Origin: Pseudomonas sp. G2-4
Lineage (GTDB): Bacteria; Pseudomonadota; Gammaproteobacteria; Pseudomonadales; Pseudomonadaceae
NCBI RefSeq assembly: GCF_030064125.1
Contig: NZ_CP125957.1
Location: 1,798,001-1,862,000, forward strand
Direction: 5' to 3'
DNA length: 64,000 nt
Shown here: one piece after another, positions 9,566 to 31,626 of the stretch
How positions within the stretch are numbered: position 1 is the stretch's first letter
Layout: each line of letters starts with the position of its first letter
Notes under the pieces: generated by a model
Databases searched by the model: none
What the model was told of the DNA's origin: nothing
What the model saw: the letters and a program-made list of their open reading frames with translations, nothing else
Made by a program: the position numbers and the translations under genes

Positions 9566-9757
9566 TGGATGTGTGAGCCCAGGAGTCTTGGAGTAAGGAT
9601 CACTGCCTACAAATTTTTCTGACTTTGGGTGTTTTTTTGTTCGTATTTAATTTGACTCAGTTTACCGTTGCGTTCGTCGGGGTATTGCCCGTCTTACCTT
9701 TTGATGCGTCCAGTGTGTTTGCAAGCGCAATCTCAAAAAAAGGAAGCGAGGCCACCC

Positions 9758-14600: not shown

Positions 14601-14650
14601 CCAAAGCAGCACCCTGGCTATGCCAGTAGAAATTTTGAAGCCTTCGACGT

Positions 14651-16223: not shown

Positions 16224-16319
16224 GCTTGCATCCAGCACTGCCGGTTGTAGGGGCGGCCCTGCTCGCATTAACCGACTCTAGCGCAAACATATTTATTTAA
16301 GAATATTCAAGGAAGCACC

Positions 16320-17591
16320 ATGCTCTTCCAAACCATTTCCGTCATAGGTCTCGGCTACATTGGTTTACCTACGGCAGCAGTATTCGCATCCCGCAAGAAG
16401 AAAGTGATTGGTGTTGACGTCAATCAGCAGGCGGTGGATACCATCAACCGCGGGGGAATTCATATTATCGAACCCGATCTAGATATGGTCGTGCATGCCG
16501 CGGTCACCGAAGGTTATCTGCGTGCTACGACACAGGCAGAGCCAGCGGATGCGTTTTTAATTGCGGTGCCAACCCCATTCAAGGGCGATCACGAACCGGA
16601 TCTCTCATATATAGAGTCAGCGAGTAAGGCTATTGCGCCAGTCTTGAAGAAAGGTGACTTGGTGATTCTAGAATCCACCTCCCCGGTGGGCGCGACTGAA
16701 CAAATGGCGGCCTGGTTGGCTGCGTCGCGCCCCGATCTGAGTTTCCCGCAAACTCATGGGGAAGACTCTGATATTCGCGTAGCGCACTGCCCCGAGCGGG
16801 TTTTACCAGGCCATGTCTTGCGGGAGCTTGTGCAGAATGATCGAGTGATTGGCGGTATGACAGCCAAATGTTCCGAGGCAGCGGTAATACTTTACAAGAC
16901 TTTCGTAGAGGGCGAGTGTGTCATTACCAATGCACGCACCGCAGAAATGTGCAAGCTGACCGAAAACAGTTTCCGTGACGTGAATATCGCCTTCGCCAAT
17001 GAGTTATCGATCATTTGCGATAAGCTGGATATCAACGTATGGGAATTAATCCGTCTGGCTAATCGTCATCCGCGGGTTAGCATCTTGCAGCCAGGTCCGG
17101 GGGTTGGTGGACACTGCATTGCTGTGGATCCTTGGTTTATCGTTAGTAGCACTCCAGAAGAAGCAAAGCTTATCCGTGCTGCGCGCGAGGTTAACGACGG
17201 CAAGCCTCATTGGGTTGAGAATAAAGTGAAATTGGCCGTAGCAGAGTTCTTGCAGCAGAATCCAGAGAGGACTGCTTCGGAAGTGACTATTGCCTGCTTT
17301 GGCCTGGCTTTTAAGCCTGATATCGATGATCTGCGTGAAAGCCCCGCCTTAGCAATTTCCCAGAAGATTGCCGCAGCCCACCCCGGTTGCGTATTGGTGG
17401 TTGAGCCAAATATTGACGCGCTACCGATGAAGTTGGCGGGCAAAAAGCTGGTTCTAAAAAGTATTGATCAAGCACTTTCCGAATCTGACGTTTTGGTGTT
17501 GTTGGTCGATCACAAGGTATTTAAGAATATTCCTATGGATGCACTTCGGGATCTTAAGATCATTGATACCCGGGGTGTTTGGATCTCTTGA
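16320..17591 (+). CDS. wecC: UDP-N-acetyl-D-mannosamine dehydrogenase
   Basis: An NAD-dependent four-electron oxidoreductase of 423 residues that oxidises UDP-ManNAc to UDP-ManNAcA. It has the three-part UDP-sugar dehydrogenase layout: N-terminal Rossmann fold (VIGLGYIGLPTAAVFA), a central domain with GPGVGGHCIAVDPWF (catalytic Cys at about 266), and a C-terminal UDP-binding domain (CFGLAFKPDIDDLRESPA). The ATG follows AAGGAAGC. It lies 96 bases after wecB; together they suggest a mannosaminuronic acid residue in the O-unit. Confidence 0.95.
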   Translation: MLFQTISVIGLGYIGLPTAAVFASRKKKVIGVDVNQQAVDTINRGGIHIIEPDLDMVVHAAVTEGYLRATTQAEPADAFLIAVPTPFKGDHEPDLSYIESASKAIAPVLKKGDLVILESTSPVGATEQMAAWLAASRPDLSFPQTHGEDSDIRVAHCPERVLPGHVLRELVQNDRVIGGMTAKCSEAAVILYKTFVEGECVITNARTAEMCKLTENSFRDVNIAFANELSIICDKLDINVWELIRLANRHPRVSILQPGPGVGGHCIAVDPWFIVSSTPEEAKLIRAAREVNDGKPHWVENKVKLAVAEFLQQNPERTASEVTIACFGLAFKPDIDDLRESPALAISQKIAAAHPGCVLVVEPNIDALPMKLAGKKLVLKSIDQALSESDVLVLLVDHKVFKNIPMDALRDLKIIDTRGVWIS

Positions 17592-17673
17592 TTGGCAAGT
17601 TGTTCGTGGGTGTCGAGATTTAAATCCACTCAATAGAATCATTTTAAAGTTTAACTTAAACGGGATTGATCAA

Positions 17674-18672
17674 ATGTTCACTAACCAAACTATTCTGGTC
17701 ACTGGCGGAACTGGCTCTTTCGGCAACACTTTCGTACCGATGACCCTGGCCAAGTACAATCCGAAGAAAATTATCATTTTCTCCCGTGATGAGATGAAGC
17801 AGTGGGACATGGCGAAGAAATTCGAGGGTGACCCCCGCGTGCGTTTTTTCATCGGCGATGTGCGTGACAAGGACCGTCTGTACCGTGCCCTAGATGGTGT
17901 CGACTACGTGGTGCATGCTGCCGCCACCAAGATCGTTCCGACCGCTGAGTACAACCCGTTCGAGTGCGTCAAGACCAACATCAATGGCGCCATGAACTTG
18001 ATTGATGCCTGTATCGACAAGGGCGTCAAGCGTGTGGTCGCGCTGTCCACGGACAAGGCCAGCAGCCCCATCAATCTGTATGGCGCAACCAAGTTGGCTT
18101 CGGATAAGCTATTCGTCTCTGGCAACTCCTATGCCGGTGGGCATGACACCCGTTTCGCCGTCGTCCGTTACGGCAATGTAATGGGCTCGCGTGGTTCGGT
18201 GATTCCGTTCTTTATGTCAATCAAGGACAAGGGAGTGCTGCCTATCACCGACGACCGCATGACCCGCTTCATGATTTCCCTCGAAGAAGGCGTCGAACTG
18301 GTTTGGCACGCTTTCGAAGACATGGAGGGCGGCGAGATCTACGTGAAGAAAATCCCATCCATGAAGGTGACGGATTTGGCTCGTGTGGTTGCACCCGACG
18401 CTAGGCAGGAAGTGATCGGCATTCGTCCCGGCGAAAAGCTGCATGAGCAGATGATCAGCGCAGAAGACTCGCACTACACCTATGACTACCCGGAGCATTA
18501 CAAGATCCTGCCAGTCATCAACGACTGGTCGACATGCGCCAAACGGATCAAGGATGGCACGAAAGTCCCCGAAGGCTTTGTCTACTCCAGCGACAACAAC
18601 GCTGAGTGGATGAGCGACAAGGAACTGCAGGTCTGGATCGATACGAACCGCGAAAAAATCGGGAGCATCTGA
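17674..18672 (+). CDS. pseB: PseB: UDP-GlcNAc 4,6-dehydratase (5-inverting)
   Basis: First enzyme of CMP-pseudaminic acid synthesis: it makes UDP-2-acetamido-2,6-dideoxy-beta-L-arabino-hex-4-ulose from UDP-GlcNAc. It is a soluble short-chain dehydrogenase of 332 residues with ILVTGGTGSFGNTF at the N-terminus, VVHAAATKIVPTAEYNP, and GATKLASDKLF where the catalytic Lys lies in a YGATK context. ATG 17674 gives the standard start MFTNQTILVTGG; the frame continues upstream into wecC sequence with no good start. It is immediately followed by pseC (three-base gap). Confidence 0.95.
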   Translation: MFTNQTILVTGGTGSFGNTFVPMTLAKYNPKKIIIFSRDEMKQWDMAKKFEGDPRVRFFIGDVRDKDRLYRALDGVDYVVHAAATKIVPTAEYNPFECVKTNINGAMNLIDACIDKGVKRVVALSTDKASSPINLYGATKLASDKLFVSGNSYAGGHDTRFAVVRYGNVMGSRGSVIPFFMSIKDKGVLPITDDRMTRFMISLEEGVELVWHAFEDMEGGEIYVKKIPSMKVTDLARVVAPDARQEVIGIRPGEKLHEQMISAEDSHYTYDYPEHYKILPVINDWSTCAKRIKDGTKVPEGFVYSSDNNAEWMSDKELQVWIDTNREKIGSI

Positions 18673-18675
18673 TCC

Positions 18676-19836
18676 ATGATCCCCTACGGTCGCCAAGACA
18701 TCACCCAGGCCGATATCGATGCGGTTCTGGAAGTACTCAAATCCGACTTCCTGACTCAGGGCCCCATGGTGCCGCGTTTCGAGCAAAGTGTGGCGCAGCA
18801 CGTCGGGGCGGGCCATGCATTGGCCGTGAACAGCGCCACCTCGGCGCTCCATATCGCCTGCCTGGCGCTTGGGCTTGGTCGCGGTGACCGTTTGTGGACC
18901 ACCCCGATCACCTTCGTCGCCTCTGCCAACTGTGGCCTGTACTGCGGAGCGGAGGTCGACTTCGTCGATATCGACCCGCACACCTATAACCTCTGCCCGC
19001 TAGCCCTTCAGCGCAAGCTGGAACGTGCCGAGCATGAAGGCAAGTTGCCCAAGGTCGTGGTTTCCGTGCATCTGTGCGGGCAACCCTGCGATATGCAAGC
19101 CATCCATGTTCTGGCCCGGCGCTATGGTTTCAAGGTGATAGAGGATGCCTCTCATGCCATCGGCGGGAAATACCGCGGCGAATTCATTGGCAATTGCCGT
19201 TACAGTGATATCACTGTGTTCAGCTTCCATCCGGTGAAGATAATCACCACCGCCGAAGGTGGCATGGCGCTGACCAACGATGCCGAACTGGCCCGCAAGA
19301 TGGCCTTGCTGCGCAGTCACGGTATCACCCGCGATCCGGCACTGATGACTCACGAGGCCGATGGCCCCTGGTACTACCAGCAGGTCGACCTCGGCTTCAA
19401 TTACCGTATGACCGACTTGCAGGCTGCCTTGGGTGTAAGCCAGATGGCGCGCCTGGATCAGTATGTGGCGCGTCGTCACCAGTTGGCTCGCCGCTACGAC
19501 GAGTTGCTGGCAGAGTTACCGGTCACCACGCCCTGGCAGCATCCGGACAGCTACTCAGGGTTGCACCTGTATGTCATCCGCCTGCAACTGGGCAAGCTCC
19601 AGAAGAGTCATCTCCAAGTATTCGAATCCCTGCATGAGTTGGGTATTGGGGTCAACCTGCACTACATTCCGGTGCATACCCAGCCTTATTATCAACGTAT
19701 GGGGTTCAAGGTCGGTAACTTCCCTTTAGCAGAAAGCTATTACAGCGAAGCTATTAGCCTACCGATGTTCCAGACCATGAGTGAGGAGCAGCAGGACACT
19801 GTTGTTGCCGCTCTGCGTGAGGTGCTCGACGCATGA
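18676..19836 (+). CDS. pseC: PseC: UDP-4-amino-4,6-dideoxy-N-acetyl-beta-L-altrosamine transaminase
   Basis: A PLP aminotransferase of the DegT/DnrJ/EryC1 group that transfers an amino group from glutamate to C4 of the PseB product. The 386 residues begin MIPYGRQDITQADIDAV, the PseC hallmark. SATSALHIACLALGLGRGD binds the cofactor phosphate, VIEDASHAIGGKYRG carries the Asp for the pyridine nitrogen, and FSFHPVKIITTAEGGM places the Schiff-base lysine at residue 188. Its stop overlaps the pseF start (ATGA). Confidence 0.95.
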   Translation: MIPYGRQDITQADIDAVLEVLKSDFLTQGPMVPRFEQSVAQHVGAGHALAVNSATSALHIACLALGLGRGDRLWTTPITFVASANCGLYCGAEVDFVDIDPHTYNLCPLALQRKLERAEHEGKLPKVVVSVHLCGQPCDMQAIHVLARRYGFKVIEDASHAIGGKYRGEFIGNCRYSDITVFSFHPVKIITTAEGGMALTNDAELARKMALLRSHGITRDPALMTHEADGPWYYQQVDLGFNYRMTDLQAALGVSQMARLDQYVARRHQLARRYDELLAELPVTTPWQHPDSYSGLHLYVIRLQLGKLQKSHLQVFESLHELGIGVNLHYIPVHTQPYYQRMGFKVGNFPLAESYYSEAISLPMFQTMSEEQQDTVVAALREVLDA

Positions 19837-20540
19837 GACTGGCTGTTATCCCTGCACGAGGCGGCAGCAAACGCATCCCGCGCAAGAACATCAAACCGTT
19901 CTGCGGCAAACCGATGATCGTTTGGTCCATCGAGACTGCGCTGCGAAGTGGCTGCTTCGATCAGGTCATCGTCTCCACCGACGATGCGGAAATTGCCGAT
20001 GTCGCTCGCCAGTATGGCGCCAGCGTACCGTTCATGCGCCCGGCCGAACTGTCTGACGATTACACCGGCACCCTCCCGGTGATTCGGCACGTCATCGAGT
20101 GGTTCAACGCTCAGGAGCAGGCGATTGAACAAGTCTGTTGCCTGTACGCTACCGCGCCTTTTGTCCAAGTTGAGGATATTCAGCGAGGGTTGCAGATCCT
20201 CGAAGAGACGGATAGCGACTATGCCTTTTCGGTGACTAGCTACGCTTTCCCGATTCAGCGGGCCATTCGTCTCACCGAGGAGGGTCAAGTTGAGATGTTC
20301 AGCCCCGAATATTTCAATACCCGCTCGCAAGATCTGGAAGAGGCTTTCCATGATGCAGGCCAGTTCTACTGGGGCCGAGCCAGCGCATGGCTGCAAGGCA
20401 AAATGATCTTCAAGCCCGGCTCGGCGCCTGTTCTCTTGCCGCGCCATCGTGTGCAGGATATTGATACGCTGGAAGACTGGGTGCGAGCTGAATGGCTGTT
20501 CAAAGCTATGCAGGCGCAACAGGGTACAGATCAGTTATGA
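19833..20540 (+). CDS. pseF: PseF: pseudaminic acid cytidylyltransferase
   Basis: Activates pseudaminic acid with CTP to CMP-Pse, the donor for glycosyltransferases. The 235-residue protein has the CMP-sialate synthetase signature IPARGGSKRIPRKNIKPFCGKPMI at the N-terminus, and LYATAPFVQVEDI and VQDIDTLEDWVRAE later. It starts within the pseC stop and ends within the pseG start, so the three genes are tightly coupled. Relatives acting on Neu5Ac or legionaminic acid share these motifs; the assignment to Pse rests on the complete pse set around it. Confidence 0.93.
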   Translation: MRLAVIPARGGSKRIPRKNIKPFCGKPMIVWSIETALRSGCFDQVIVSTDDAEIADVARQYGASVPFMRPAELSDDYTGTLPVIRHVIEWFNAQEQAIEQVCCLYATAPFVQVEDIQRGLQILEETDSDYAFSVTSYAFPIQRAIRLTEEGQVEMFSPEYFNTRSQDLEEAFHDAGQFYWGRASAWLQGKMIFKPGSAPVLLPRHRVQDIDTLEDWVRAEWLFKAMQAQQGTDQL

Positions 20541-21649
20541 AGGTTGTCTTCCGCGCCGACGCCTCGCAACAGATCGGTACCGGCCATGTCATGCGCTGCC
20601 TGACCCTGGCCGATGCTCTTAATGCCCGGGGCGCAGAATGCCGGTTCATCTGTCGCGAGCTCCCCGGCAACCTGATTGAACTCATTCGTAGCAAGGGTTA
20701 TCCAGTCCATAGCTTGCCTCTCAGCGAATCGCAAGAAGCTAGCTTGCTCGTGACCAATGAAGCTGGCAGCGGAGCAAAATTGCCCCACACTGCTTGGCTC
20801 GGTACCTCCCAAGAGCAGGATGTCGCCGAGTGCGCCGTCATCCTTGGCGAGTTGAGCACCGATTGGTTAGTGGTCGATCATTACGCCCTCGATGCCCGCT
20901 GGGAAGTTGCACTCAAACGGCACTGCCGCAAGCTGATGGTGATCGATGACCTGGCCGATCGTCCCCATCAAGGCGACCTCTTGCTGGATCAGACCTTCGG
21001 TCGCAATCCGGCGGACTATGCTCCGTGCGTGCCTGCTACATGCACGGTACTCTGCGGCTCGCAATATGCCCTGTTACGCCCCGAGTTTGCCGAGCTGCGT
21101 CCCTACAGTCTGGCTCGTCGGGGAGATGCGCAGCTCAGGCATCTGCTCATCACCATGGGCGGTGTTGATAAGGACAATGCCACCGGGCAGGTACTGTATG
21201 CCCTCCAGTCCAGCGAACTTCCTGCCAATTGCCGTATCACTGTGGTGATGGGCGCAACTGCGCCCTGGCTAACTGAAGTTCGTCAGCGGGCTGAGCAGAT
21301 GCCATGGCCCACCGACGTCCGAGTAAACGTTGGCGATATGGCACAGCTGATGGCCGATAGCGACTTGGCGATTGGCGCTGCCGGCTCGACGTCCTGGGAA
21401 CGCTGCTGTTTGGGATTACCGACGGTGCTGGTCGTTCTTGCCGACAATCAACATCAGGTCGCAAAAGGTCTCGAACAAGCGGGAGCGGTCCATGTCCTGC
21501 AGGAACCGCATCGGATCGCGGAGCATCTCCCACAGGCACTGGCTTCACTGATCTCATCGACAGTCTTTCGGGCTGCCATGAGCCAGGCTGCGCAGCGCAT
21601 TGCGGACGGCAATGGCGTAGCTACTGTAATCCAGCACCTGGAGTCTTGA
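20537..21649 (+). CDS. pseG: PseG: UDP-2,4-diacetamido-2,4,6-trideoxy-beta-L-altrose hydrolase
   Basis: Removes UDP from the fully acetylated sugar nucleotide, releasing the hexose used by PseI. The 370-residue GT-B-fold protein begins MKVVFRADASQQIGTGHVMRCLTLADAL, typical of PseG, and has DDLADRPHQGDLLLDQ and GAAGSTSWERCCLGLPTVLV in the UDP-binding half. ATG 20537 is preferred because it begins this motif and overlaps the pseF stop (ATGA). In some bacteria PseG and PseH are fused; here they are separate genes. Confidence 0.94.
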   Translation: MKVVFRADASQQIGTGHVMRCLTLADALNARGAECRFICRELPGNLIELIRSKGYPVHSLPLSESQEASLLVTNEAGSGAKLPHTAWLGTSQEQDVAECAVILGELSTDWLVVDHYALDARWEVALKRHCRKLMVIDDLADRPHQGDLLLDQTFGRNPADYAPCVPATCTVLCGSQYALLRPEFAELRPYSLARRGDAQLRHLLITMGGVDKDNATGQVLYALQSSELPANCRITVVMGATAPWLTEVRQRAEQMPWPTDVRVNVGDMAQLMADSDLAIGAAGSTSWERCCLGLPTVLVVLADNQHQVAKGLEQAGAVHVLQEPHRIAEHLPQALASLISSTVFRAAMSQAAQRIADGNGVATVIQHLES

Positions 21650-21650
21650 A

Positions 21651-22172
21651 GTGACCGGAACAGTATCGGCTCAACAGCGAGTACGTCCGATGACATACGA
21701 GGATCTCGAGCGAGTGCTTGCTTGGCGAAACCATGAAGAGGTGCGCCGCTACATGTACACTCAGCATGAAATCAGCCTAATCGAACACTCGCGCTGGTTC
21801 GAGCGGGCATCCCAGGACTCCAGCCGTCACCTACTGGTATTTGAAAGCAATGCTGTGCCTCTAGGCTTCATAAACCTCCATCAGATTGCACCCGGTGGTG
21901 TGGCAGATTGGGGCTTCTATGTTGCTCCTGACGCACCGAGAGGAACAGGCCGTCTACTGGGGCATGCAGTATTGCAACATGCTTTCGCTCATCTAGCCTT
22001 GCACAAGCTCTGTGGGCAGGCGCTGCGCTTCAATACGCGGTCCATCAAGTTTCATCAGAGACTTGGCTTTCAGCAGGAAGGAATTCTGCGTGAGCAACAC
22101 TTTGACGGCCAGAGCTATCACGATGTTGTGTGCTTTGGCCTTCTTGCCTCTGAATGGCAATCGAACCTCTGA
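21651..22172 (+). CDS. pseH: PseH: UDP-4-amino-4,6-dideoxy-N-acetyl-beta-L-altrosamine N-acetyltransferase
   Basis: A GNAT-fold acetyltransferase of 173 residues that acetylates the C4 amino group with acetyl-CoA. RPMTYEDLERVLAWRNHEEVRRYM is the common start of sugar N-acetyltransferases of this group, and DAPRGTGRLLGHAVLQHAF is the CoA pyrophosphate loop. GTG at 21651 follows the pseG stop by one base. Its place between pseG and pseI supports the assignment. Confidence 0.9.
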   Translation: MTGTVSAQQRVRPMTYEDLERVLAWRNHEEVRRYMYTQHEISLIEHSRWFERASQDSSRHLLVFESNAVPLGFINLHQIAPGGVADWGFYVAPDAPRGTGRLLGHAVLQHAFAHLALHKLCGQALRFNTRSIKFHQRLGFQQEGILREQHFDGQSYHDVVCFGLLASEWQSNL

Positions 22173-22183
22173 GAGATAACCGT

Positions 22184-23245
22184 ATGTCGACTATCCCAAG
22201 TATCAGCATTGCCGGCCGACGCATCGCTCTCGATGCGCCGCCTTACATAATTGCCGAACTTTCCGCGAACCATAATGGCAAGTTGGAAACGGCACTGAAG
22301 ATAATCGAAGAAGCCAAAAAGGCGGGCGCCGACGCCATCAAGCTTCAGACCTACACCGCCGATACCATTACCTTGGATTGCGATTCGGAAGAATTTCAGA
22401 TCCACGGTGGACTGTGGGACGGCAAGAGTCTCTATCAGCTTTACCAAGAAGCTCATATGCCTTGGGACTGGCATGTTCCGCTGTTCGAGCATGCGCGTAA
22501 ATTAGGTATCACCATCTTCAGTTCGCCGTTCGACAACACAGCTGTCGACCTCCTGGAAAGCCTCCGCGCCCCAGCCTACAAGATTGCCTCCTTCGAGGCC
22601 GTCGATTTGGCGCTGATCAAATATGTCGCCAGCACTGGCAAGCCGATGATCATCTCCACCGGTATGGCTGATGCGGAGGAGATTCAGGAAGCGATAGCGG
22701 CTGCGCGCGATGGGGGATGCAAGGAGTTGGCTATATTGCATTGCGTAAGTGGCTATCCTGCCCCAGCAGAAGACTACAACCTACGTACTATCCCCGACAT
22801 GATCCAGCGCTTCGGCTTGGTTACGGGATTGTCTGATCACACGCTTGATAATACTACCGCTATTACAAGTGTTGCTCTGGGGGCTTCGGTGATTGAAAAA
22901 CACTTCACCCTAGATCGGAACGGTGGAGGGGCGGATGACAGCTTCTCTCTAGAGCCCGCCGAACTCACTGCGCTTTGTCGTGACAGTAAGACCGCGTGGG
23001 CAGCTTTAGGTAGGGTTGATTATGGTCGCAAGTCCAGCGAGCAAACTAACGCAAAGTTTCGACGATCTCTTTACTTTGTGAAGGACCTGAAGGCCGGCGA
23101 TGTAATTACTGAAAGTGCAGTGAGAAGTGTGCGGCCAGGGTATGGTGCTGCACCAAAATATTTAGACTATGTGCTTGATAAAAAAGTAATATCTGATGTT
23201 TCTGCTAACAGCCCTGTTGTGTTGGAAGGGTTAAAAGATGCATGA
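22184..23245 (+). CDS. pseI: PseI: pseudaminic acid synthase
   Basis: Condenses the PseG product with phosphoenolpyruvate to give pseudaminic acid. The 353-residue protein has an N-terminal NeuB-type TIM barrel (PYIIAELSANHNGKLETALKIIEEAKKAGADAIKLQTY is the signature) and a C-terminal SAF/antifreeze-like domain from about residue 290 (RRSLYFVKDLKAGDVITESAVRSVRPG). ATG 22184 is chosen over upstream alternatives because of the GAGAGA site and normal family length. It completes the six-enzyme set B, C, F, G, H, I in one run. Codons become more AT-rich toward its end, at the edge of the AT-rich block. Confidence 0.95.
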   Translation: MSTIPSISIAGRRIALDAPPYIIAELSANHNGKLETALKIIEEAKKAGADAIKLQTYTADTITLDCDSEEFQIHGGLWDGKSLYQLYQEAHMPWDWHVPLFEHARKLGITIFSSPFDNTAVDLLESLRAPAYKIASFEAVDLALIKYVASTGKPMIISTGMADAEEIQEAIAAARDGGCKELAILHCVSGYPAPAEDYNLRTIPDMIQRFGLVTGLSDHTLDNTTAITSVALGASVIEKHFTLDRNGGGADDSFSLEPAELTALCRDSKTAWAALGRVDYGRKSSEQTNAKFRRSLYFVKDLKAGDVITESAVRSVRPGYGAAPKYLDYVLDKKVISDVSANSPVVLEGLKDA

Positions 23246-23276
23246 GCGGTGTCTTATAATTTTTGAGTTTGAGTAA

Positions 23277-24194
23277 ATGAAGAATAAGGTGTTGATTCTG
23301 GTAGAAACGCCGTTTCAACTGCTATGTGCTTATGAATATTTACGTAAGCACCAAGCCTGTATTTCTTTATATATTAGGAATAGCGGCGTTGGCAGCAATG
23401 ATCAGCAAATGAGCGCAATGGTCAGAGACTTAAACCTTAAAGTAAAAAAAGAATTTCTGGTAAGGCCAGGCAATAAGTTAGATTACTTTTTGTCGGTCTT
23501 GGGTTTCTTGTTCAGCAATTTTCATTGCTATGATAAGGTAGTTTTAGGTAGTTTTTTCTCTGGCTTTCAGAAGCTACTTTCTTCAATTGTTCTAAAAAAA
23601 GAAATAATTCTGTTGGACGATGGTGTTGCGACTTTGCTGGCTGATAAAATAATAAATGAGCGAGGAGGGAAGTATTCAGTATTTAGTATATTTGATCTGG
23701 ATGAAAAAAATTATCTTAATTGTGAAGTGAATCGATTTGATTCTATTGCCGGTGAGTATGATTGTAAGGGGAGTGAGGAGTATGCTGTTTTTTTTATAGG
23801 ACAAAAGCTGGTTGATATCGGTGCAATGGATGTCGCTGCCTATATTAGGGTTTTAGAGTCTGCAGTAAAAGACTCGCCTGAATCAGTTGTGCACTACATT
23901 CCGCATCGCACGGAAAGTCTAGAGTGTCTAGAAGTCGTTAAGGAAGTAAAAGGTCTCCAGTTATTGCATGCAGACGTAGCGGTGGAGTATTTCATGTTGC
24001 GAAACAAGTGGCGTCCGCGGAAAATCTATTCAGTTAACTCTACGGCACTTTTTACGCTTGCGAGCCTATTTCCTGATGCTAGGGCCGTTGCCATAATACC
24101 TAGTACGTTAAAGACGCAAATGTTTGTGCATCATGATCTGATAATGGAGTCTTTTGAAAGGCATAAATCGATCGTAATAAATCGCGTTTCATAG
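23277..24194 (+). CDS. Putative sialyltransferase-like glycosyltransferase, candidate pseudaminyltransferase
   Basis: A 305-residue protein with no membrane helix predicted by eye. Its start VLILVETPFQLLCAYEYL and the acidic motif LLDDG (residues 112-116) resemble bacterial GT-B sialyltransferases and polysialyltransferases (GT52/GT38 type), which carry a D/E-D/E-G motif, an HP motif and a serine motif. Here the second motif reads YIPHR (207-211), so the usual His-Pro order is altered, and a serine motif may be SVNSTALFTL (252-261). It follows pseI by 31 bases in AT-rich DNA. Since CMP-Pse is a nonulosonate donor like CMP-Neu5Ac, the likely job is attaching Pse to the O-unit; this is inference. 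Alternatively it may use another donor. Confidence 0.6.
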   Translation: MKNKVLILVETPFQLLCAYEYLRKHQACISLYIRNSGVGSNDQQMSAMVRDLNLKVKKEFLVRPGNKLDYFLSVLGFLFSNFHCYDKVVLGSFFSGFQKLLSSIVLKKEIILLDDGVATLLADKIINERGGKYSVFSIFDLDEKNYLNCEVNRFDSIAGEYDCKGSEEYAVFFIGQKLVDIGAMDVAAYIRVLESAVKDSPESVVHYIPHRTESLECLEVVKEVKGLQLLHADVAVEYFMLRNKWRPRKIYSVNSTALFTLASLFPDARAVAIIPSTLKTQMFVHHDLIMESFERHKSIVINRVS

Positions 24195-24274
24195 ATTTTG
24201 CCAGAAACATTTGTCGTGTTGTATGGTGGCTAGGCTTCTTTCGTTAATAGATAAAATTATCTTAAGGCATTTAA

Positions 24275-25417
24275 ATGCTTGGATTGCTCGCTTTTCTTTC
24301 GACGATTGTGTTCTTTTCACCAGTCGTTAATTTATTACTTCTCCCGATTGTCTTCTATAGATTGTTTTTGACCAGCTATGGAAGGGATTTGAGTTTTCTA
24401 AAGAGTGGACATGTTGTTGGGTTGATGCTGCTGCTGTTGTCAGCGCTTCTGTCAGTTGTTGTATTTGCCTTTGCGGAACCTTTAATTGATAATTTTGAAA
24501 AGTCAATATTAGGTGCTTTTCCTTATGTGGTGCTAATACTGATTTCTTTATTTGCGGGTATGGTCTTTCGCAGGAGTGATTTGATAGTAGTACTTTTGCT
24601 GGTTTTGTTCGAAATAGCTGTGGGTTTCGCTGAGTATATTGCTGGAACTCACTCGTTTTTTTCGGTTGCACATAAAGGACAGACCCAGATCGGTGACACT
24701 GAGTTGCTTTACTATAATCGGGTTTTCGGTTTGAGTGTGAACTCCAGTGTCTATGCCTTCAAGGTATTAGTTGGCTTTGTTGTTTTGATGGCAATAAGGT
24801 CGGAGTTGTCTCGGCGTGTCTTCCTGGTTTGTGCGGGAATACTCGCTGTCGGATTTGTTACATCTTTCAATAGAACCGCAATTGTTGCTGCCGCGATTAG
24901 CCTGATGTTCTATTATGCGACTAATTGGAGGGTTGTGCTTTCCGGAGGGGTGGTAGGTTGTGCAGTAGGCGTTCTCTACTTATCCACTATCATTGAGAAT
25001 CTTACGCGTGGTAGAGGTGAGCTAGACTTGTCTGGCCGGGATTTTATTTTTTATGAGTTTTTTAGTGTTCTGAAGCAAAGTCCATTCTTTGGTAACGCTG
25101 CGCAAAAAGTTTGGTTGCAGCTTAATGATGGTTTGTATCACGCACACAGTTCATATCTTGAGTTTTTGGTATCAAACGGCGTTTTCATCTCACTTTTGTT
25201 TTTTTCGGGCTATTATCTCTTGGTTTTACGTGGCCGAATGCTGGCCGCGTTACCCTTGCTGATCTATTCTGTGTTTCAGTATGGGTTGCTTTGGGGGTTG
25301 GTTTTTAACGACGTAGTGTTTTTTGGGTTGATGTTTTATTTGTTAAGATCGAACTCCGATAAGCGGGCAGCGGCTAATAATAAAGCTTCTCTAGAAACGA
25401 AGGTGATTGATGTTTAA
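24275..25417 (+). CDS. wzy: O-antigen polymerase Wzy
   Basis: A 380-residue membrane protein with about ten or eleven hydrophobic segments and a large periplasmic loop, as in Wzy O-antigen polymerases. The loop ends in HAHSSYLEFLVSNGVF, matching the HxHNxYL pattern of the Wzy_C/O-antigen ligase-like superfamily; FNRTAIVAAAISLM carries the conserved arginine before it. Wzy links undecaprenyl-bound repeat units in the periplasm, with length set by Wzz. WaaL ligases share the fold, but their genes usually sit in core-oligosaccharide loci. The DNA is AT-rich. The stop overlaps the next start. Confidence 0.85.
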   Translation: MLGLLAFLSTIVFFSPVVNLLLLPIVFYRLFLTSYGRDLSFLKSGHVVGLMLLLLSALLSVVVFAFAEPLIDNFEKSILGAFPYVVLILISLFAGMVFRRSDLIVVLLLVLFEIAVGFAEYIAGTHSFFSVAHKGQTQIGDTELLYYNRVFGLSVNSSVYAFKVLVGFVVLMAIRSELSRRVFLVCAGILAVGFVTSFNRTAIVAAAISLMFYYATNWRVVLSGGVVGCAVGVLYLSTIIENLTRGRGELDLSGRDFIFYEFFSVLKQSPFFGNAAQKVWLQLNDGLYHAHSSYLEFLVSNGVFISLLFFSGYYLLVLRGRMLAALPLLIYSVFQYGLLWGLVFNDVVFFGLMFYLLRSNSDKRAAANNKASLETKVIDV

Positions 25418-25907
25418 GTACGTAGTTAAAAAAATACTTTCCGAGATCTTCTATCTGACTTCTGGACGCAATTTTGTCGCGTCATCAGGTCGGCCTAAAA
25501 TAAACGGCTTCTGTAGGTTTGGGGCTAAGTTAGTTTTGGGAGCTAACGCCAATTTTAATGGGGCGAGAACGTATGGCGCTGGTAAAATCCATGTTGGGGA
25601 TAATTTTCACTCGGGTGTGGGGTTGAAAGTATTGACTCAGAGTCATAACTATAATGGCGAATCTATCCCTTATGACAGAACTGTTATAGTAAAAGATGTC
25701 GTTATCGGTGATAACGTTTGGTTTGGTATGAATGTAATGGTTCTGCCAGGCGTGAGAATTGGGGAGGGGGCGATCATTCAAGCTGGATCGGTAGTTTCGA
25801 AATCAATACCTGATTTGGCCATTGCGGGCGGTAATCCAGCCGAAGTTATTCGGTTTCGTGATAAGAATCATTATTTTAAGATGAAGCAAGATGACCGCTA
25901 TCTGTAA
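25410..25907 (+). CDS. Hexapeptide-repeat O-acetyltransferase
   Basis: A 165-residue left-handed beta-helix acetyltransferase. Hexapeptide repeats cover about residues 40-145, and the segment VIGDNVWFGMNVMVLPGVRIGEGAIIQAGSVV followed by IPDLAIAGGNPAEVIRFR is the classic C-terminal pattern of the CatB/WcaF/NodL group that uses acetyl-CoA. The conserved histidine of the active site is in LTQSHNYNG. Likely role: O-acetylation of one sugar of the O-unit. It overlaps the end of wzy by eight bases and the start of wzx by 17 bases, all in the AT-rich block. Confidence 0.85.
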   Translation: MFKYVVKKILSEIFYLTSGRNFVASSGRPKINGFCRFGAKLVLGANANFNGARTYGAGKIHVGDNFHSGVGLKVLTQSHNYNGESIPYDRTVIVKDVVIGDNVWFGMNVMVLPGVRIGEGAIIQAGSVVSKSIPDLAIAGGNPAEVIRFRDKNHYFKMKQDDRYL

Positions 25908-27114
25908 AACCTTAGGTATGGTGTTTGGTTACTCTTCGGTCTTGTTGGTGTCAAAAGGACTTACCTTGCTGGTAAGTTACTTGGTTGCTTTCTCTGTGGG
26001 TAACGCAGAATTCGGCTATTTTTCCCTTGCGCAAGCACTGTTTGTTACTGCGGTTACTTTGTTGGGGTTCAATTCTTCCGCCGCATACGTTAGATATTTT
26101 TATAGTAAAGGAGTTTCTGCGATTTATAAAGCGTTGAAGCGGGTTTATTATCTATTGTTTGTACTCTCTGTTTTTTTTGGATTGCTATTATATTTTATTT
26201 TCTCAGGGCATCCATATTTCGTTTGGTTTGCATTACTTCCTATTTCTGGTTTTTTGGCAGCGCATATTGCTAGCTTTAATGCGATATATAGATGTTCAAA
26301 TAGTTTGATGGGTTATGCTTTCGCTGAGTTGGGGAGGCCCGTTCTAGTCTTTCTTTCATTGGCGGTTTTTTTGTGGATGAAATTCGAGTTTTCTATTGTT
26401 GCAGTATATTTACTTGCTTTGTGTGCTTCTTTGTTGTTGGTCGTTTTTTTCTCGGTCTTTCACTTTCGTTCAAAACTACTCAATAAGTCGCAGTCATCTC
26501 TGGAAGAGAGGGAAGTTGTGGTATATCTACTTCCGTTGGTTTTGGTTCAGTTGATGGCGTTGCTTAATAATGTGGGCGATAGATATATTTTGAGCGCCTT
26601 TGTAACTGTTGACGAGATTGGAAAATACGGTAAGGCCTATCTTATAGGATCTGCTGCGGGAATGCTCATTGATAGCTTTTCCTTGTTGTGGGCACCATAT
26701 GTTGTCAGAAGAGTCGATGATTTTAAGACTGATCTGTATCCTAAGGCCTTGCTTGTTTTTGGAGGTGCGACCTTCTTATCTTTGCTTTTGCTATTTGGGG
26801 CGGGCTTTGTTTTTATCTATGAAGTTTCATTTTTTTCTTTCGATTACCTTTTCTTGGTAATGGCGATCATTGTGCTTTCTGCATTTATGGCTCGTGTAGG
26901 ATATCAAATATTTGTGCCCGTGTTGAGCGCCTATGATCTTACAGGTGTTGTCGCCAAGTTGTCTTTTGTGGGCGCGATTGGCGGAATTGCTGCAAACTTT
27001 GCTTTGATTCCATTTTGGGGCGGGGTAGGGGCAGCTATAGCGACCTGGATTTCATTTTCCATTTTTTCCATGCTTTCTTTCTGGGTTGTACGAGAAAAAA
27101 TGCTTCGGGTATGA
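25891..27114 (+). CDS. wzx: O-antigen flippase Wzx
   Basis: A 407-residue polytopic protein of the MATE/Wzx (polysaccharide biosynthesis) superfamily with about twelve hydrophobic segments. It starts with SSVLLVSKGLTLLVSYLVAFSVGNAEFGYFSLAQALF, the usual first two helices and the short loop GxxEFG found in Wzx. It moves the undecaprenyl-diphosphate-linked unit across the inner membrane for Wzy. The start lies inside the acetyltransferase gene. AT-rich coding sequence with many TTT and ATT codons points to lateral transfer. Confidence 0.87.
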   Translation: MTAICKTLGMVFGYSSVLLVSKGLTLLVSYLVAFSVGNAEFGYFSLAQALFVTAVTLLGFNSSAAYVRYFYSKGVSAIYKALKRVYYLLFVLSVFFGLLLYFIFSGHPYFVWFALLPISGFLAAHIASFNAIYRCSNSLMGYAFAELGRPVLVFLSLAVFLWMKFEFSIVAVYLLALCASLLLVVFFSVFHFRSKLLNKSQSSLEEREVVVYLLPLVLVQLMALLNNVGDRYILSAFVTVDEIGKYGKAYLIGSAAGMLIDSFSLLWAPYVVRRVDDFKTDLYPKALLVFGGATFLSLLLLFGAGFVFIYEVSFFSFDYLFLVMAIIVLSAFMARVGYQIFVPVLSAYDLTGVVAKLSFVGAIGGIAANFALIPFWGGVGAAIATWISFSIFSMLSFWVVREKMLRV

Positions 27115-27233
27115 GCCTTTATCAAATAGATTGTTATTCTTTGTAATATAAATCGAGCTGTAGAACAAACACCGGTACTGGAAATTTAACTCCGTCAGCC
27201 GGAATCGCTAATTACGGAGTATCGCAGGGTCCT

Positions 27234-28448
27234 ATGAAAGTTCTGTATTTTCACCAACACTTTTCGACCCCGAAAGGCACGGTCGGTACCCGCTCTTATG
27301 AAATGGCTCGTCGTTTGCTTGCGCGTGGTCATCATGTGACGATGGTGTGCGGGAGTTATAGTGGCGGGGAGACTGGTCTGGGTCTTCCTTTCATTGGCGG
27401 TAAACGACGCGGAACAGTCGATGGTATTAACATCATTGAGTTCGATCTGGCGTATTCAAATAGTGATGGCTTAGTAAAGAGAGCTGTGACCTTCGCCAAG
27501 TTTGCTCTACGCAGCATCAGTTTGGCATTTACTGAGCGCTACGATCTAGTATTTGCAACGACTACGCCATTAACTGCGGGTATTCCTGGTATTTTCGCCC
27601 GCTGGTTACGAGGTAAACCGTTCGTATTTGAGGTGCGCGATCTGTGGCCGGAATTGCCCAAGGCTATGGGGGTGATCCGGAATCCTCTAGTATTGTGTGC
27701 CATGTCGATACTGGAGTGGATAAGTTATCGCTCGGCACATAGGTTGATTGGCTTGTCCCCCGGGATAGTTGAAGGCATTGTTAAGCGTGGGGTCGCACGC
27801 GAGCGGGTTGCTCTGGTCCCCAATGGCTGCGATCTGGGTATTTTTTCCGGCGACGTTGAACCTTGGCGTCCCGAGCAGGTAAAACCGGACGATATGCTGG
27901 CTGTTTTTGCGGGCACCCATGGCGTGGCCAATGGCCTGGATGCCGTACTCGATGCGGCAGCGGAACTGAAACGGCGTGGACGTGACGATATCAAGTTGCT
28001 TTTGATCGGCCAGGGCAAGCTCAAACCGGCTTTACAGGCACGGGCGCAGCGCGAAGCGTTGCACTGTGTTGTGTTTCATGAACCAGTGAACAAGTCTCGA
28101 CTTGCTGGTCTGATGGCTAGTACGGATGTTGGGTTGCAGGTATTGGCAAATGTGCCTGCTTTCTACGTTGGCACTTCACCAAACAAGTTTTTCGACTACA
28201 TTGCATCTGGCTTGCCCGTACTCAACAATTATCCCGGCTGGTTGGCGGGGATGATTCGCGATAACCATTGCGGCTATGCAGTTGAGCCGGAAAATCGGCA
28301 CGCTTTTGCCGATGCGCTGGAGCAGGTTGCAGGTGATAAGACGGCAGCAAAGGAAATGGGCAAACGGAGTCGTGAGTTGGCTGAGCGAGAGTTTGACCGC
28401 GAACTGCTGGCGAATCGCTTTGTCGATTGGCTGGAGGGAGTAAGGTGA
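27234..28448 (+). CDS. GT4-family glycosyltransferase, WbuB-like
   Basis: A 404-residue GT-B glycosyltransferase. The start MKVLYFHQHFSTPKGTVGTRSYEMARRLLARGHHVTMV and FEVRDLWPELPKAMGV are typical of WbuB/WbpY-like enzymes that add an amino sugar or L-FucNAc early in the O-unit. The C-terminal nucleotide-sugar site is SPNKFFDYIASGLPVLNN, where the common Glu of the EX7E motif is partly replaced. The acceptor and donor cannot be read from sequence. GC content returns towards that of the host here. It overlaps the following sugar-phosphate transferase gene (GTGA). Confidence 0.87.
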   Translation: MKVLYFHQHFSTPKGTVGTRSYEMARRLLARGHHVTMVCGSYSGGETGLGLPFIGGKRRGTVDGINIIEFDLAYSNSDGLVKRAVTFAKFALRSISLAFTERYDLVFATTTPLTAGIPGIFARWLRGKPFVFEVRDLWPELPKAMGVIRNPLVLCAMSILEWISYRSAHRLIGLSPGIVEGIVKRGVARERVALVPNGCDLGIFSGDVEPWRPEQVKPDDMLAVFAGTHGVANGLDAVLDAAAELKRRGRDDIKLLLIGQGKLKPALQARAQREALHCVVFHEPVNKSRLAGLMASTDVGLQVLANVPAFYVGTSPNKFFDYIASGLPVLNNYPGWLAGMIRDNHCGYAVEPENRHAFADALEQVAGDKTAAKEMGKRSRELAEREFDRELLANRFVDWLEGVR

Positions 28449-29044
28449 ATATCAAGCGCCTTTCCGATATCGTCGCCTCCGTTTGCGGTCTTTTACTGCT
28501 AGCACCAGTTATTGCCATCGTTGCGTGGCAGGTTCGCCGCAAACTTGGTTCTCCTGTGCTGTTCCGTCAAGTGCGGCCCGGTCTGAATGGTGAGCCATTC
28601 GAGATGATCAAGTTCCGTTCCATGCGCGATGCTGTGGATGTTGTCGGCAACCCATTACCAGACTCCGAGCGTATGACACCATTTGGCAGTTTCCTGCGTT
28701 CCAGTAGTTTGGACGAATTGCCAGGGCTGTGGAACGTGTTAAAGGGGCACATGAGCCTAGTGGGGCCGCGTCCGCTTTTGATGGAGTACCTTCCGCTTTA
28801 TAGCCCTGAGCAATACCGTCGCCATGAGGTGCGTCCCGGAGTTACCGGTTGGGCGCAAATTAATGGCCGTAATGGACTTGGCTGGGACGATAAGTTTAAG
28901 CTGGATGTCTGGTATGTCGACAATCGCTCATTCTGGCTGGATCTTAAAATCATCTTATTGACCATCAAGAAGGTGCTGGTGCGTGATGGCATCAACGCCG
29001 AAGGGGAGGCAACCATGTCCAAGTTTACGGGGAATAAACCGTGA
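28445..29044 (+). CDS. Initiating sugar-phosphate transferase, PglC-type
   Basis: A 199-residue monotopic phosphoglycosyltransferase (bacterial sugar transferase family, PF02397). It has one N-terminal membrane-associated segment (SDIVASVCGLLLLAPVIAIVAW), KRLSDI before it, and the catalytic region SSLDELPGLWNVLKGHMSLVGPRPLL containing the Asp-Glu pair used by PglC. The short length, without the four-helix N-terminus of WbaP/WcaJ, fits PglC, which moves phospho-bacillosamine to undecaprenyl phosphate. It probably starts the O-unit. GTG 28445 is taken because it overlaps the preceding stop; the end overlaps the PglD-like gene by four bases. Confidence 0.9.
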   Translation: MNIKRLSDIVASVCGLLLLAPVIAIVAWQVRRKLGSPVLFRQVRPGLNGEPFEMIKFRSMRDAVDVVGNPLPDSERMTPFGSFLRSSSLDELPGLWNVLKGHMSLVGPRPLLMEYLPLYSPEQYRRHEVRPGVTGWAQINGRNGLGWDDKFKLDVWYVDNRSFWLDLKIILLTIKKVLVRDGINAEGEATMSKFTGNKP

Positions 29045-29664
29045 ACCGTCTAGCCATTTTGGGCGCTAGCGGCCACGGCAAGGTAGTGGCAGATACAGCT
29101 GAGTGTTCTGGTTGGGACTCGATATGTTTTTTTGATGATGCTTGGCCGTCAGTTAAGAAAAATGGAATATGGTCAGTCGTGGGTAATACGGACCGCTTAC
29201 TCTCGGAACTTGAAACGTTTTCCGGTGTGGTTGTCGCCATTGGCGATAATCGAATACGTCAGGATAAACTCCAAAAATTACTTCTGGTCAACGCTAGGTT
29301 GGTTACGCTGATACATCCTGCCGCCACGGTGAGTCGATATGCGACGATTGGAGCCGGTTCCGTAGTTTTTGCAGGTGTCGTAGTAAATGTAGGAGTTCGG
29401 GTCGGATTAGGTGCGATTTTGAACACAGGTTGTAGCGTTGATCATGATTGTGTTTTGGGGGATTCTATCCATATTAGTCCGGGAGCGCATCTTTCAGGCG
29501 GTGTAACACTGGGTGATCGGAGCTGGATCGGTGTTGGTGCGTGTATCAGGCAGCAGATTAGTATTGGTTGTGATGTAGTTGTAGGGGCTGGCGCGGCGGT
29601 GGTGAATGACATTGCCTCCCGTCGAGTCGTGGCTGGTGTGCCGGCCAAGCAGCTGAAAGGCTAA
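29041..29664 (+). CDS. PglD-type sugar N-acetyltransferase
   Basis: A 207-residue enzyme of the NeuD/PglD group: an N-terminal Rossmann-like domain (LAILGASGHGKVVADTAE, about 1-80) that binds the UDP-sugar, and a left-handed beta-helix of hexapeptide repeats (about 90-195) ending RVVAGVPAKQLKG. The segment SVDHDCVLGDSIHISPGAHLSGGV has the catalytic histidine and the CoA-site histidine. PglD acetylates the C4 amine of UDP-4-amino sugars. It sits between the PglC-like transferase and the aminotransferase, so a 2,4-diacetamido-trideoxyhexose product is likely. The start is GTG. Confidence 0.88.
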   Translation: MNRLAILGASGHGKVVADTAECSGWDSICFFDDAWPSVKKNGIWSVVGNTDRLLSELETFSGVVVAIGDNRIRQDKLQKLLLVNARLVTLIHPAATVSRYATIGAGSVVFAGVVVNVGVRVGLGAILNTGCSVDHDCVLGDSIHISPGAHLSGGVTLGDRSWIGVGACIRQQISIGCDVVVGAGAAVVNDIASRRVVAGVPAKQLKG

Positions 29665-29711
29665 TTCAGGACGGGTTACTTGGGTAGTATTAATTTATAT
29701 AGGTATAGATT

Positions 29712-30890
29712 GTGCTGAATACACCATTTTCACCTTGGCCTTCTTTCACCGAAGAAGAAGCGGACGCGGTTCGGGCGGTTATATTATCTAATAAGGTTAA
29801 TTATTGGACAGGGCAAGAGTGTCGCGAGTTCGAGAAGGAATTTGCAGCGTGGATTGAGGTAAAGCATGCTGTAGCCGTTACAAATGGCACCTTAGCGTTA
29901 GATTTAGCGCTAAAGGCGCTGGGAATTGGCACGGGAGATGAAGTGGTTGTCACGCCCCGGACTTTTTTAGCATCTGTATCCAGTATCGTTAATTGTGGCG
30001 CGGTCCCTGTATTTGCGGATGTAGACCGCGATACACAAAACTTTACTGCAGATTCAATTCGTGCGGTGTTGACATCTAGAACTCGTGCCTTTATTTGCGT
30101 CCATTTGGCGGGGTGGCCTTGTGATATGGATCCAATAATATCTTTGGCGAAAGAATTTGGTATTAAAGTTATCGAGGATTGTGCTCAAGCTCATGGGGCA
30201 GTCTATAAAGGGAGGCCGGTTGGTTCGATCGGAGATATTGGGGCATGGTCTTTTTGCCAAGACAAAATAATGACCACAGGTGGTGAGGGCGGAATGGTCA
30301 CGACTAATGATAGTAAACTGTGGTCTAGTATGTGGTCATTTAAAGATCATGGCAAAAGTTGGGAAGCAGTTTACGAACAAGAGCACCCGCCAGGCTTTCG
30401 TTGGCTCCACGGAAGTTTTGGCACTAACTGGCGTATGCTAGAACTACAGGCTGTTATAGGTCGCATTCAGCTACGGCGCATGAGAGATTGGCATACAAGT
30501 CGCCTGAATAATGCTCGCCAGATCTGGGCATGTGCACGAACATGCGCTGCTTTACGAGCCCCAATAGTTCCCGAAGAAATTGTTCACGCAGCATACAAAT
30601 GTTATGTGTTCGTGCGGCCAGATAAGTTAAAAGTAAACTGGAGTCGTGATCGGATATTAACGGAGATCGCCGCCCAGGGTGTACCATGTTTTTCCGGTTC
30701 ATGCTCTGAGGTATATCTTGAGAAGGCCTTTGATAACACTAGGTGGCGACCTGAAAAACGGCTAGCTGCAGCGAAAGAATTAGGGGAGACCAGTCTGATG
30801 TTTATGGTGCATCCCACGATAACTGAGGCCCAAGTCGCCAAAACCTGCAACGTTTTGAAGCATGTAATGAACGAGGCTACTGAAGGTTAA
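29712..30890 (+). CDS. DegT/DnrJ/EryC1 aminotransferase, PglE-like
   Basis: A 392-residue PLP sugar aminotransferase. NGTLALDLALKALGIGTGDEVVVTPRTFLASVSS forms the cofactor phosphate pocket, VIEDCAQAHGAVYKG has the Asp facing the pyridine nitrogen, and FCQDKIMTTGGEGGM holds the Schiff-base lysine at 185. It probably transaminates the 4-keto sugar made by WbpM, giving the substrate for the PglD-like enzyme. GTG at 29712 is the likely start (LNTPFSPWPSFTEEEADAV follows). It is the last intact gene of the O-antigen operon; the wbpM remnant follows. Confidence 0.9.
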   Translation: MLNTPFSPWPSFTEEEADAVRAVILSNKVNYWTGQECREFEKEFAAWIEVKHAVAVTNGTLALDLALKALGIGTGDEVVVTPRTFLASVSSIVNCGAVPVFADVDRDTQNFTADSIRAVLTSRTRAFICVHLAGWPCDMDPIISLAKEFGIKVIEDCAQAHGAVYKGRPVGSIGDIGAWSFCQDKIMTTGGEGGMVTTNDSKLWSSMWSFKDHGKSWEAVYEQEHPPGFRWLHGSFGTNWRMLELQAVIGRIQLRRMRDWHTSRLNNARQIWACARTCAALRAPIVPEEIVHAAYKCYVFVRPDKLKVNWSRDRILTEIAAQGVPCFSGSCSEVYLEKAFDNTRWRPEKRLAAAKELGETSLMFMVHPTITEAQVAKTCNVLKHVMNEATEG

Positions 30891-30904
30891 TTTAGTGGTG
30901 GATA

Positions 30905-31176
30905 GTGTTCGCTCGGATAAGAGTCGCCCAAGGCGATATTTCAATCAAGTTTATGGTGGCTGCATCTAGGTGAGAAGCGTTACAAAGAGTTGTTAGTTGG
31001 CGACAACGTCGTTGCAGCCTCTCATTCTATGATCATGATTGCCAACGAAGACGGCTGCCATCGAGCATGATGACTACGGAAGGGTTCGTCAGTTGCTCAG
31101 GGATACGGTGAGCGGCTACGCCCCGGACGGCGAGATTGTCGACTGGATCTACCAGCAGCGCCGTCTCGACCCCTGA
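30905..31176 (+). pseudogene. wbpM: Decayed 3' end of a second wbpM gene
   Basis: This stretch aligns with the last part of intact wbpM (from about 13228 to the stop at 13544). The final 110 bases differ at about a dozen positions, mostly third codon positions. Further upstream changes accumulate, including Glu to Lys and Pro to Leu replacements. About 45 bases are deleted after the codons for ANED, shifting the frame and giving an early stop. The region 5' of 30905 shows no further similarity. It lies next to comEA, where intact wbpM stands in P. aeruginosa, so it looks like the old resident copy left after the island was rearranged. Confidence 0.88.
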
Positions 31177-31236
31177 TTGTTACACAAGCTGTAACGTACA
31201 CACTTTTGACAGTACCCCATCATCGCCTAAGTTTGA

Positions 31237-31266
31237 GAAGCAGCTTCGGAAAAGCTGCTTCTTTCT
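31237..31266 (+). terminator. Terminator at the end of the O-antigen locus
   Basis: GAAGCAGCTT (31237-31246) and AAGCTGCTTC (31252-31261) form a perfect 10-bp stem followed by TTTCTT. It lies 60 bases after the wbpM remnant and before comEA, so it ends the O-antigen transcription unit. Confidence 0.85.
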
Positions 31267-31290
31267 TAACGATGTCATGGAGCGTCACTT

Positions 31291-31626
31291 ATGCGTACAG
31301 GCTATTTCTACTCTCTGGTTTTTGCCCTTCTGACCAGTGCCTCTATAGCAGTTATCGCTGCACCCGCGGTCAAGTCCGAGACGACGGCTGCTCCGCAGGT
31401 ATTGGACGTGTCGGCGAAGTCGCAAAGCGCCAAGGTGGATCTTAACGGGGCGGATGCCGCGACTCTGCAACGCGAGTTGACGGGAATAGGCAAGACCAAG
31501 GCCGAGGCGATTGTTGCGTATCGGGAGAGTAATGGAGCCTTCTCGTCGGTGGAGGAGTTGCTGGAGGTCAAGGGAATTGGTAAAGCGCTTCTGGACAGGA
31601 ATCGCGACAAGTTGGAAGTGAACTGA
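31291..31626 (+). CDS. comEA: ComEA-family helix-hairpin-helix protein
   Basis: A 111-residue exported protein: signal peptide (about 1-24, YFYSLVFALLTSASIAVIAAPA), a short linker, and a C-terminal pair of helix-hairpin-helix motifs (KVDLNGADAATLQRELTGIGKTKAEAIVAYRE and VEELLEVKGIGKALLDRNRDKLEVN). ComEA proteins bind incoming double-stranded DNA in the periplasm during natural transformation. Pseudomonads keep this gene next to wbpM, as here, often without full proof of competence. It has its own terminator. Confidence 0.9.
   Translation: MRTGYFYSLVFALLTSASIAVIAAPAVKSETTAAPQVLDVSAKSQSAKVDLNGADAATLQRELTGIGKTKAEAIVAYRESNGAFSSVEELLEVKGIGKALLDRNRDKLEVN

Follow-up and report, generated by a model that had tools for sequence, protein, structure and literature searches.

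The 64,000-nucleotide stretch of Pseudomonas sp. G2-4 analyzed here (the window) carries an rfaH-led O-antigen island located between wbpM and comEA. The homologous anchor at this position is doubled: there are two wbpM 3' ends and two copies of the leader that precedes comEA, one of them orphaned (Table 1). We propose that this arrangement probably arose by stacking, in which new genes are added by a one-side-anchored capture at the wbpM-comEA boundary and erosion follows, and we agree with an earlier note on this DNA that the region is a trace of O-antigen island turnover. Genomes and loci used for comparison carry our handles (G and L numbers, respectively). We take the flanking genes to be rpsA and gntR, and the gene before wbpM to be wbpL.

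Table 1. Features of the wzz-comEA region, in window coordinates.
Feature	Coordinates	Strand	Basis
wzz, chain-length regulator, left chromosomal neighbour	9668..10831	+	Pfam PF02706, E 5e-18
Decayed C-terminal part of wbpL (initiating glycosyltransferase)	~11013..11436	+	Matches to wbpL-type genes of relatives
Upstream flank of wbpM, common to relatives' wbpM	11504..11549	+	85-93% identity over 28-47 bases
Intact wbpM, read as resident	11550..13544	+	PF02719, E 4e-123
Orphan, decayed copy of the wbpM-comEA leader	13537..13597	+	nhmmer, positions 1-61, E 3.5e-6
Left junction zone	13598..13685	.	No leader signal; no recognisable source; G267 the sole match among fetched loci
Island start: rfaH-like gene and upstream stretch	13686..14577	+	NCBIfam TIGR01955, E 9e-48
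wecB, wecC (UDP-ManNAc, UDP-ManNAcA synthesis)	15102..17591	+	TIGR00236, NF008286
pseB, pseC, pseF, pseG, pseH, pseI (pseudaminic acid synthesis)	17674..23245	+	TIGR03589, TIGR03588, TIGR03590, TIGR03586
Polysialyltransferase-like, Wzy-like, hexapeptide transferase, Wzx-like, glycosyltransferase	23277..28448	+	PF07388 (E 3e-5), PF04932, PF00132, PF01943, PF13579
Sugar transferase, pglD-like, degT	28427..30890	+	PF02397, PF17836, PF01041
Second wbpM, 3' remnant only	30904..31176	+	blastn, protein search, lesion alignment
comEA leader with conserved hairpin-like stretch	31171..31290	+	nhmmer, positions 3-119, E 3e-34
comEA	31291..31626	+	PF12836, E 4e-21

The island and its relatives

The onset of the island lies within 13598-13686 and the rfaH-like gene itself occupies 13984-14577. 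GC content is ~39-42% mid-island, pseF and pseH are assigned by PF02348 and GNAT only, and no integrase or transposase was found among the 17 open frames scanned (13984-30890). Right behind the pseudaminic acid set is a polysialyltransferase-like gene (23277-24194), and its product is a candidate transferase of the pseudaminyl or sialyl type.

Among eight other genomes mapped (four only in part) the island was found in the sister genome G267 alone, where its genes and the intact wbpM are 88-98% identical in protein to those of the window. The island-borne rfaH-like gene likewise has a close relative only in G267 among the mapped relatives, G125 having a partial 46% match. Segments of the island start are shared more widely: 13686-13752 matches G223, G179, G082, G060 and G221 (76-83%), and 13888-14694 matches G082, G179, G380, G223, G060, G186, G069 and G221 (76-80%), with G287 matching part of it (74%). 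All seven rfaH-led islands mapped elsewhere have wbpM at the right end; in G223 wecB-wecC-pseB-pseC follow rfaH and wbpM stands at the end, and in G082, G179 and G060 the islands end in transferase-pglD-degT-wbpM. Within the fetched stretches comEA was not found beside the wbpM of these islands. The transferase-pglD-degT trio is also present upstream of wbpM-comEA in L049, L053, L080, L087, L089 and L108. The pse genes leave the origin of the island unsettled, because G125, G039 and G112 carry their own pse genes right behind wzz (PseB protein identity of 90-91%, versus 92% for G223).

In G010 a small decayed wbpM piece follows degT (L157; G010:C1:1876229-1876314), and some 3 kb further on is another wbpM, apparently intact over the part fetched (residues 1-569); the fates of the two copies are thus opposite to those in the window. 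The idea taken from this genome, that a wbpM piece always accompanies the trio, was ruled out by the degT-wbpM gaps of the six loci named above, from which such a piece is absent.

A decayed second wbpM beside comEA

The segment between degT and the comEA leader is confirmed as a frameshifted, internally deleted 3' end of wbpM. Comparison of 11401-13800 with 13801-64000 by blastn gives two matches (85.2% identity over 169 bases, E 3e-45; 79.9% over 159 bases, E 7e-27), the next-best having an E value of 0.25, and a whole-genome wbpM protein search returns the intact gene, the remnant (in two pieces) and two paralogues at 36% and 33%. In a local alignment, 13230-13590 lines up with 30904-31222. 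The remnant is without the first 85% of wbpM, its coding part contains two single-base insertions and one 44-base deletion, and its stop is at 31176. The earlier note had thus recognized the diverged 3' end correctly, together with the spacing of ~17.6 kb between the direct repeats formed by the two 3' ends. It also described a likeness of ~30 bases past both stop codons; the likeness is present and is longer, at 46 bases by pairwise alignment or 53 by profile (to 13597), beyond which it is no better than in shuffles (p 0.91 for the window, 0.24 for G267).

Differences between the remnant and the intact gene fall at codon positions 1/2/3 as 1/1/11 in the last 120 bases, and we agree with the earlier view that the remnant is a real former allele. 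In the 5' part they fall as 9/6/13, so that the description of mostly synonymous differences near the stop holds for the final 120 bases and does not extend to the 5' part; positions 1 and 2 together differ at 2/80 and 15/98 sites, respectively (Fisher p 0.004). We note that the final 120 bases (31053-31176) are functional-like with the remainder decayed, which may reflect a later patch from a working allele.

G267 contains a corresponding remnant, with the same degT junction and different frame lesions. The common junction and the private frameshifts indicate that the truncation is older than the split of the window and G267 and the frame decay younger. Between these two remnants the 5' part differs evenly across codon positions (9/9/10), as expected of decay, and the 3' part differs as 3/7/12. 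The longest exact match between the two wbpM copies is 17 bases in the window versus 33 in G267, and excision by plain homology looks less likely in the window.

The comEA leader and its orphan copy

Every one of the 80 named loci has a leader before comEA, and the 60 canonical ones served to build the nhmmer profile. The leader in the window (31176-31290) and those in the 80 loci contain a TTGACA-like block and a hairpin-like stretch. A by-eye assignment as promoter plus terminator was not upheld by a consensus scan of 31050-31350, which called neither, and we therefore use the neutral name 'leader'. Near the orphan leader the same scan made a single terminator-like call, inside rfaH. The orphan copy follows the intact wbpM, and G267 also has one behind its intact wbpM (E 3.3e-7). 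Stretching the orphan leader by eye past 13597 to a comEA start failed a shuffle test.

Context of the intact wbpM

By its sequence context the intact wbpM looks like the resident gene. Its end is 17.7 kb short of comEA, the island lying in between, and a decayed wbpL piece is all that was found in the interval from wzz to wbpM. The wbpL matches are in pieces in broken frames that end ~113 bases before wbpM, and in seven of the 11 relatives taken a wbpL-type gene adjoins wbpM and ends 112-132 bases before it. Six of these seven genes match the window in pieces (best E 2e-8) and the seventh matches G267 (E 3e-6); the homologue from G398 carries PF00953. An excerpt of a published account also has wbpL preceding wbpM in Pseudomonas (PMC6804347). 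The flank immediately upstream of wbpM matches those in L056, L085, L036, L039, G125, G266, L115 and others.

With as much as 10 kb of upstream sequence taken per locus, 60 of the 80 named comEA loci have an intact wbpM directly before comEA. In a tree of 76 full genes the intact copies of the window and G267 fall inside a clade of 17 rows (SH-aLRT 97) that includes P. kilonensis, P. corrugata, P. tehranensis and Pseudomonas sp. Q11, and the other members of which stand directly before comEA, except G266 (1.4 kb away) and L039. The intact wbpM is 92-96% identical in protein to the comEA-adjacent copies of this clade. The decayed wbpL before it, the leader copy behind it and its position in a native clade together argue that the gene was once between wbpL and comEA, in its native place.

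Relationship of the two wbpM copies

A 32-row tree unites G340 with the two intact copies and the two remnants in a single clade (100/98). In this clade the window remnant joins the intact pair (96/89), and the G267 remnant shows a weak affinity to G340 (87/61). A tree of the last 312 bases alone separates none of the alternatives. Counting differences in the 5' part places the G267 remnant clearly nearest the intact copies (13-14 versus 21 and 24); for the window remnant the same preference is weak (28 and 32 versus 31 and 37). AU tests gave p values of 0.26 for the remnant pair together, 0.38 for all four copies together, 0.42 for the window remnant with the window gene and a borderline 0.05 for joining the remnants to L036 and L037. 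The tests clearly reject none of these groupings, and a remnant of ~300 bases is too short to order or date the copies.

G340 has a native-type wbpM at comEA and a more distant wbpM (78%) behind a wbpL. In none of the five loci with two full wbpM genes in the tree (L042, L046, L052, L064, L110) are the two copies sisters. L046, L052, L110 and L057 each have a more distant wbpM (79-80% protein identity) upstream of the native comEA-adjacent gene; three of these upstream copies form a long-branched clade, and they were apparently brought by islands of another kind. In L154 (G388) the match to the wbpM beside comEA comes as three pieces, the frame changing from one to the next, as if a single copy had broken, and this locus was excluded from the trees for that reason.

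Orphan leaders elsewhere in the genus

Twenty of the 80 named comEA loci are without an intact wbpM directly before comEA. Eight of these keep wbpM 3' coding sequence (L044, L047, L055, L058, L068, L075, L103, L114), 11 have the leader only, and one (L071) begins inside wbpM. In L047, L068 and L103 the break points nearly coincide, ~33-36 bases before the wbpM end (GACTGGATC). A leader query, with two candidates at most scored per genome, matched 207 of 398 genus genomes, ten of them with two copies, and all ten were inspected. With the profile, further orphan leaders come to light: decayed ones in the window, G267 and L042, one in P. zanjanensis (G398, the same as L055) and a partial one in L068; reverse-strand profile matches inside the true leader, which come from the hairpin, were excluded.

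P. zanjanensis has, from the left, wzz, old genes, an open wbpL, an intact wbpM and a leader that reaches a comEA-type start codon; there follow genes for Wzx (flippase), hexapeptide and acyltransferase proteins, a degraded wbpM and comEA. This order suggests an earlier, half-way stage of stacking. Traces of a second comEA are found in other genomes: in G177, 37 codons of comEA can be matched after the distal leader; G168 retains a decayed piece of the gene; in G006 a second comEA behind the distal wbpM is matched over its full length; and G227 has a second comEA split in two on another contig. We sampled 20 open frames from the inserts of G236, G354, G177 and G168, of which 11 have a Pfam match and nine none; the matches are to glycosyltransferases, acyl- and acetyltransferases and an aminotransferase, with two FAD enzymes also in G236.

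Counting the window and G267 as one lineage and excluding L068 (partial) and G231 and G245 (contig ends), there are 11 lineages, a count biased to cases in which the distal side survives. All 11 have a full, open distal wbpM, and the comEA-side wbpM is degraded or absent in ten (window/G267, G398, G177, G168, G006, G336, G135, G236, G354 and G227), being full only in L042; in G135 and G227 the copies are on different contigs and their order is an assumption. In the 90-row comEA tree, the 14 orphan-leader rows (here including G231 and G245) need at least ten changes, which may be gains or losses, and starred branches force five of them; the tree has weak support (14 of 87 inner branches starred), and a row was labelled single on the fetched stretch only. 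The orphan-leader label shows more clustering than its shuffled versions, of which 2 of 500 scored as low. In L236 (G175:C1:1666524-1667021) a wbpM 3' end is followed within ~20 bases by a second short wbpM tail, leader and comEA, and this double tail may be the footprint of a lost insert.

Proposed history and alternatives

Stacking would have begun from an ancestor with the order wzz, old O-antigen genes, wbpL, wbpM, leader and comEA. Incoming DNA, an rfaH-led island ending in its own wbpM and comEA leader, would have joined at the wbpM-comEA boundary, by homologous pairing in wbpM-leader-comEA on the right and by end-joining that cut the resident leader on the left. The product would have been the old cluster, wbpL, wbpM, an orphan leader, the new island, a second wbpM, leader and comEA. 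The old cluster between wzz and mid-wbpL would have been lost later, wbpL would have decayed, a sugar transferase being present in the island itself, and the second wbpM, now redundant, would have lost its 5' part first and its frame afterwards. We infer the order of events, the donor and the one-side-anchored recombination mechanism.

This history is favored by the decayed wbpL, the orphan leader in both the window and G267, the nesting of the intact copies in the native clade, the restriction of the window's island to G267 among the mapped genomes, the right-end wbpM of all seven rfaH-led islands, the earlier stage in G398 and the comEA traces behind the distal wbpM in G177, G168 and G006. 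Against stacking are the shortness of the remnant, which cannot date the copies while AU tests allow all four together and other groupings, and the functional-like last 120 bases of an otherwise decayed gene. The pse genes of G125, G039 and G112, a comEA not found beside the wbpM of rfaH-led islands, and a left junction with neither a recognisable source nor a donor found also speak against it. Moreover, stacking has to assume an intermediate strain of the local lineage: the remnant belongs to that lineage, but the rfaH stretch and the sugar transferase have a foreign look.

The earlier note proposed instead that an incoming island brought the intact wbpM to its place beside wzz and displaced the resident cluster, leaving the remnant as the old resident wbpM. 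The remnant is indeed contiguous with the leader and comEA and was once a working allele; however, it is the intact gene that looks resident, with a decayed wbpL at the native spacing, a place in the native clade and a comEA leader behind it, and the seven rfaH-led islands mapped carry wbpM at their right ends. We regard an island-borne intact wbpM as highly improbable. The same note held that nearest kinship of the two copies would mean a simple local duplication. The free tree does place them in one clade with G340, although the AU tests clearly reject no grouping, and a simple local duplication is insufficient because 17 kb of island genes lie between the copies. A version in which wbpM and the leader were doubled in tandem and the island genes captured between the copies afterwards accords with that clade and with the 5' parts of the remnants, that of G267 in particular; it is unlikely given that two full copies are never sisters in the five loci and that the G267 remnant leans weakly to G340. 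The order of events could also be reversed, with the island replacing the cluster as usual and a short block of partial wbpL, wbpM and partial leader inserted later beside wzz. This gives formally the same layout, and decay of the comEA-side wbpM would follow, but two illegitimate joins are needed for a small block and G398 has an old cluster with an open wbpL in front of its orphan leader, making this order very unlikely.

Relation to known systems and implications

Excerpts of published work give the borders of the O-antigen cluster as himD/ihfB and wbpM (PMC8319346) or wzz and wbpM (PMC6804347). The window resembles the classic exchange at ihfB/wzz-wbpM in its locus, its border genes and the swapping of variable glycan genes as blocks, and differs in that the cluster lies between wbpM and comEA with the old border gene kept in front; the variable genes are not between wzz/ihfB and wbpM, and the intact wbpM is not directly before comEA. 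Among the titles and abstract openings retrieved for this locus from open-licence literature, outside which most subscription journals fall, none deals with O-antigen clusters beyond wbpM.

Homology-facilitated illegitimate recombination combines homology at one end with illegitimate joining at the other (PMC3240628, in excerpt), and PMC5361080 cites such work in transformable P. stutzeri in the part available; in the window the mechanism is read from the junctions. The same part of PMC5361080 proposes anchored insertion for Vibrio cholerae T6SS effector modules, Rhs tips being likewise displaced stepwise. As described there, these systems share with the window the orphaned old parts beside the newcomer and one conserved anchor stretch; the T6SS arrays keep orphan immunity genes, whereas in the window a whole sugar cluster is stacked and the anchor-gene copy decays.

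Stacking at the wbpM-comEA boundary is perhaps a recurrent second route of O-antigen turnover in Pseudomonas, in which newcomers are anchored on the right behind the old cluster, the comEA-side wbpM is regularly lost and the distal one kept, a generalization that we offer tentatively and at less than even confidence. It is not common everywhere, since all 43 strains compared in the lineage treated by PMC13101481 have the cluster between ihfB and wbpM, according to an excerpt of that report. Applied to genomes such as this one, the wzz/ihfB-wbpM border rule recovers little beyond wzz, and the island past wbpM escapes it. The orphan leader provides a sequence marker of additive captures, with which replacement and stacking can be counted across genomes. 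O-antigen genes influence phage and tailocin sensitivity in these bacteria (PMC10715155 and PMC8319346, both in excerpt), and the route of exchange thus bears on receptor turnover. If recurrent stacking is true, orphan comEA leaders would be a countable record of past O-antigen captures.
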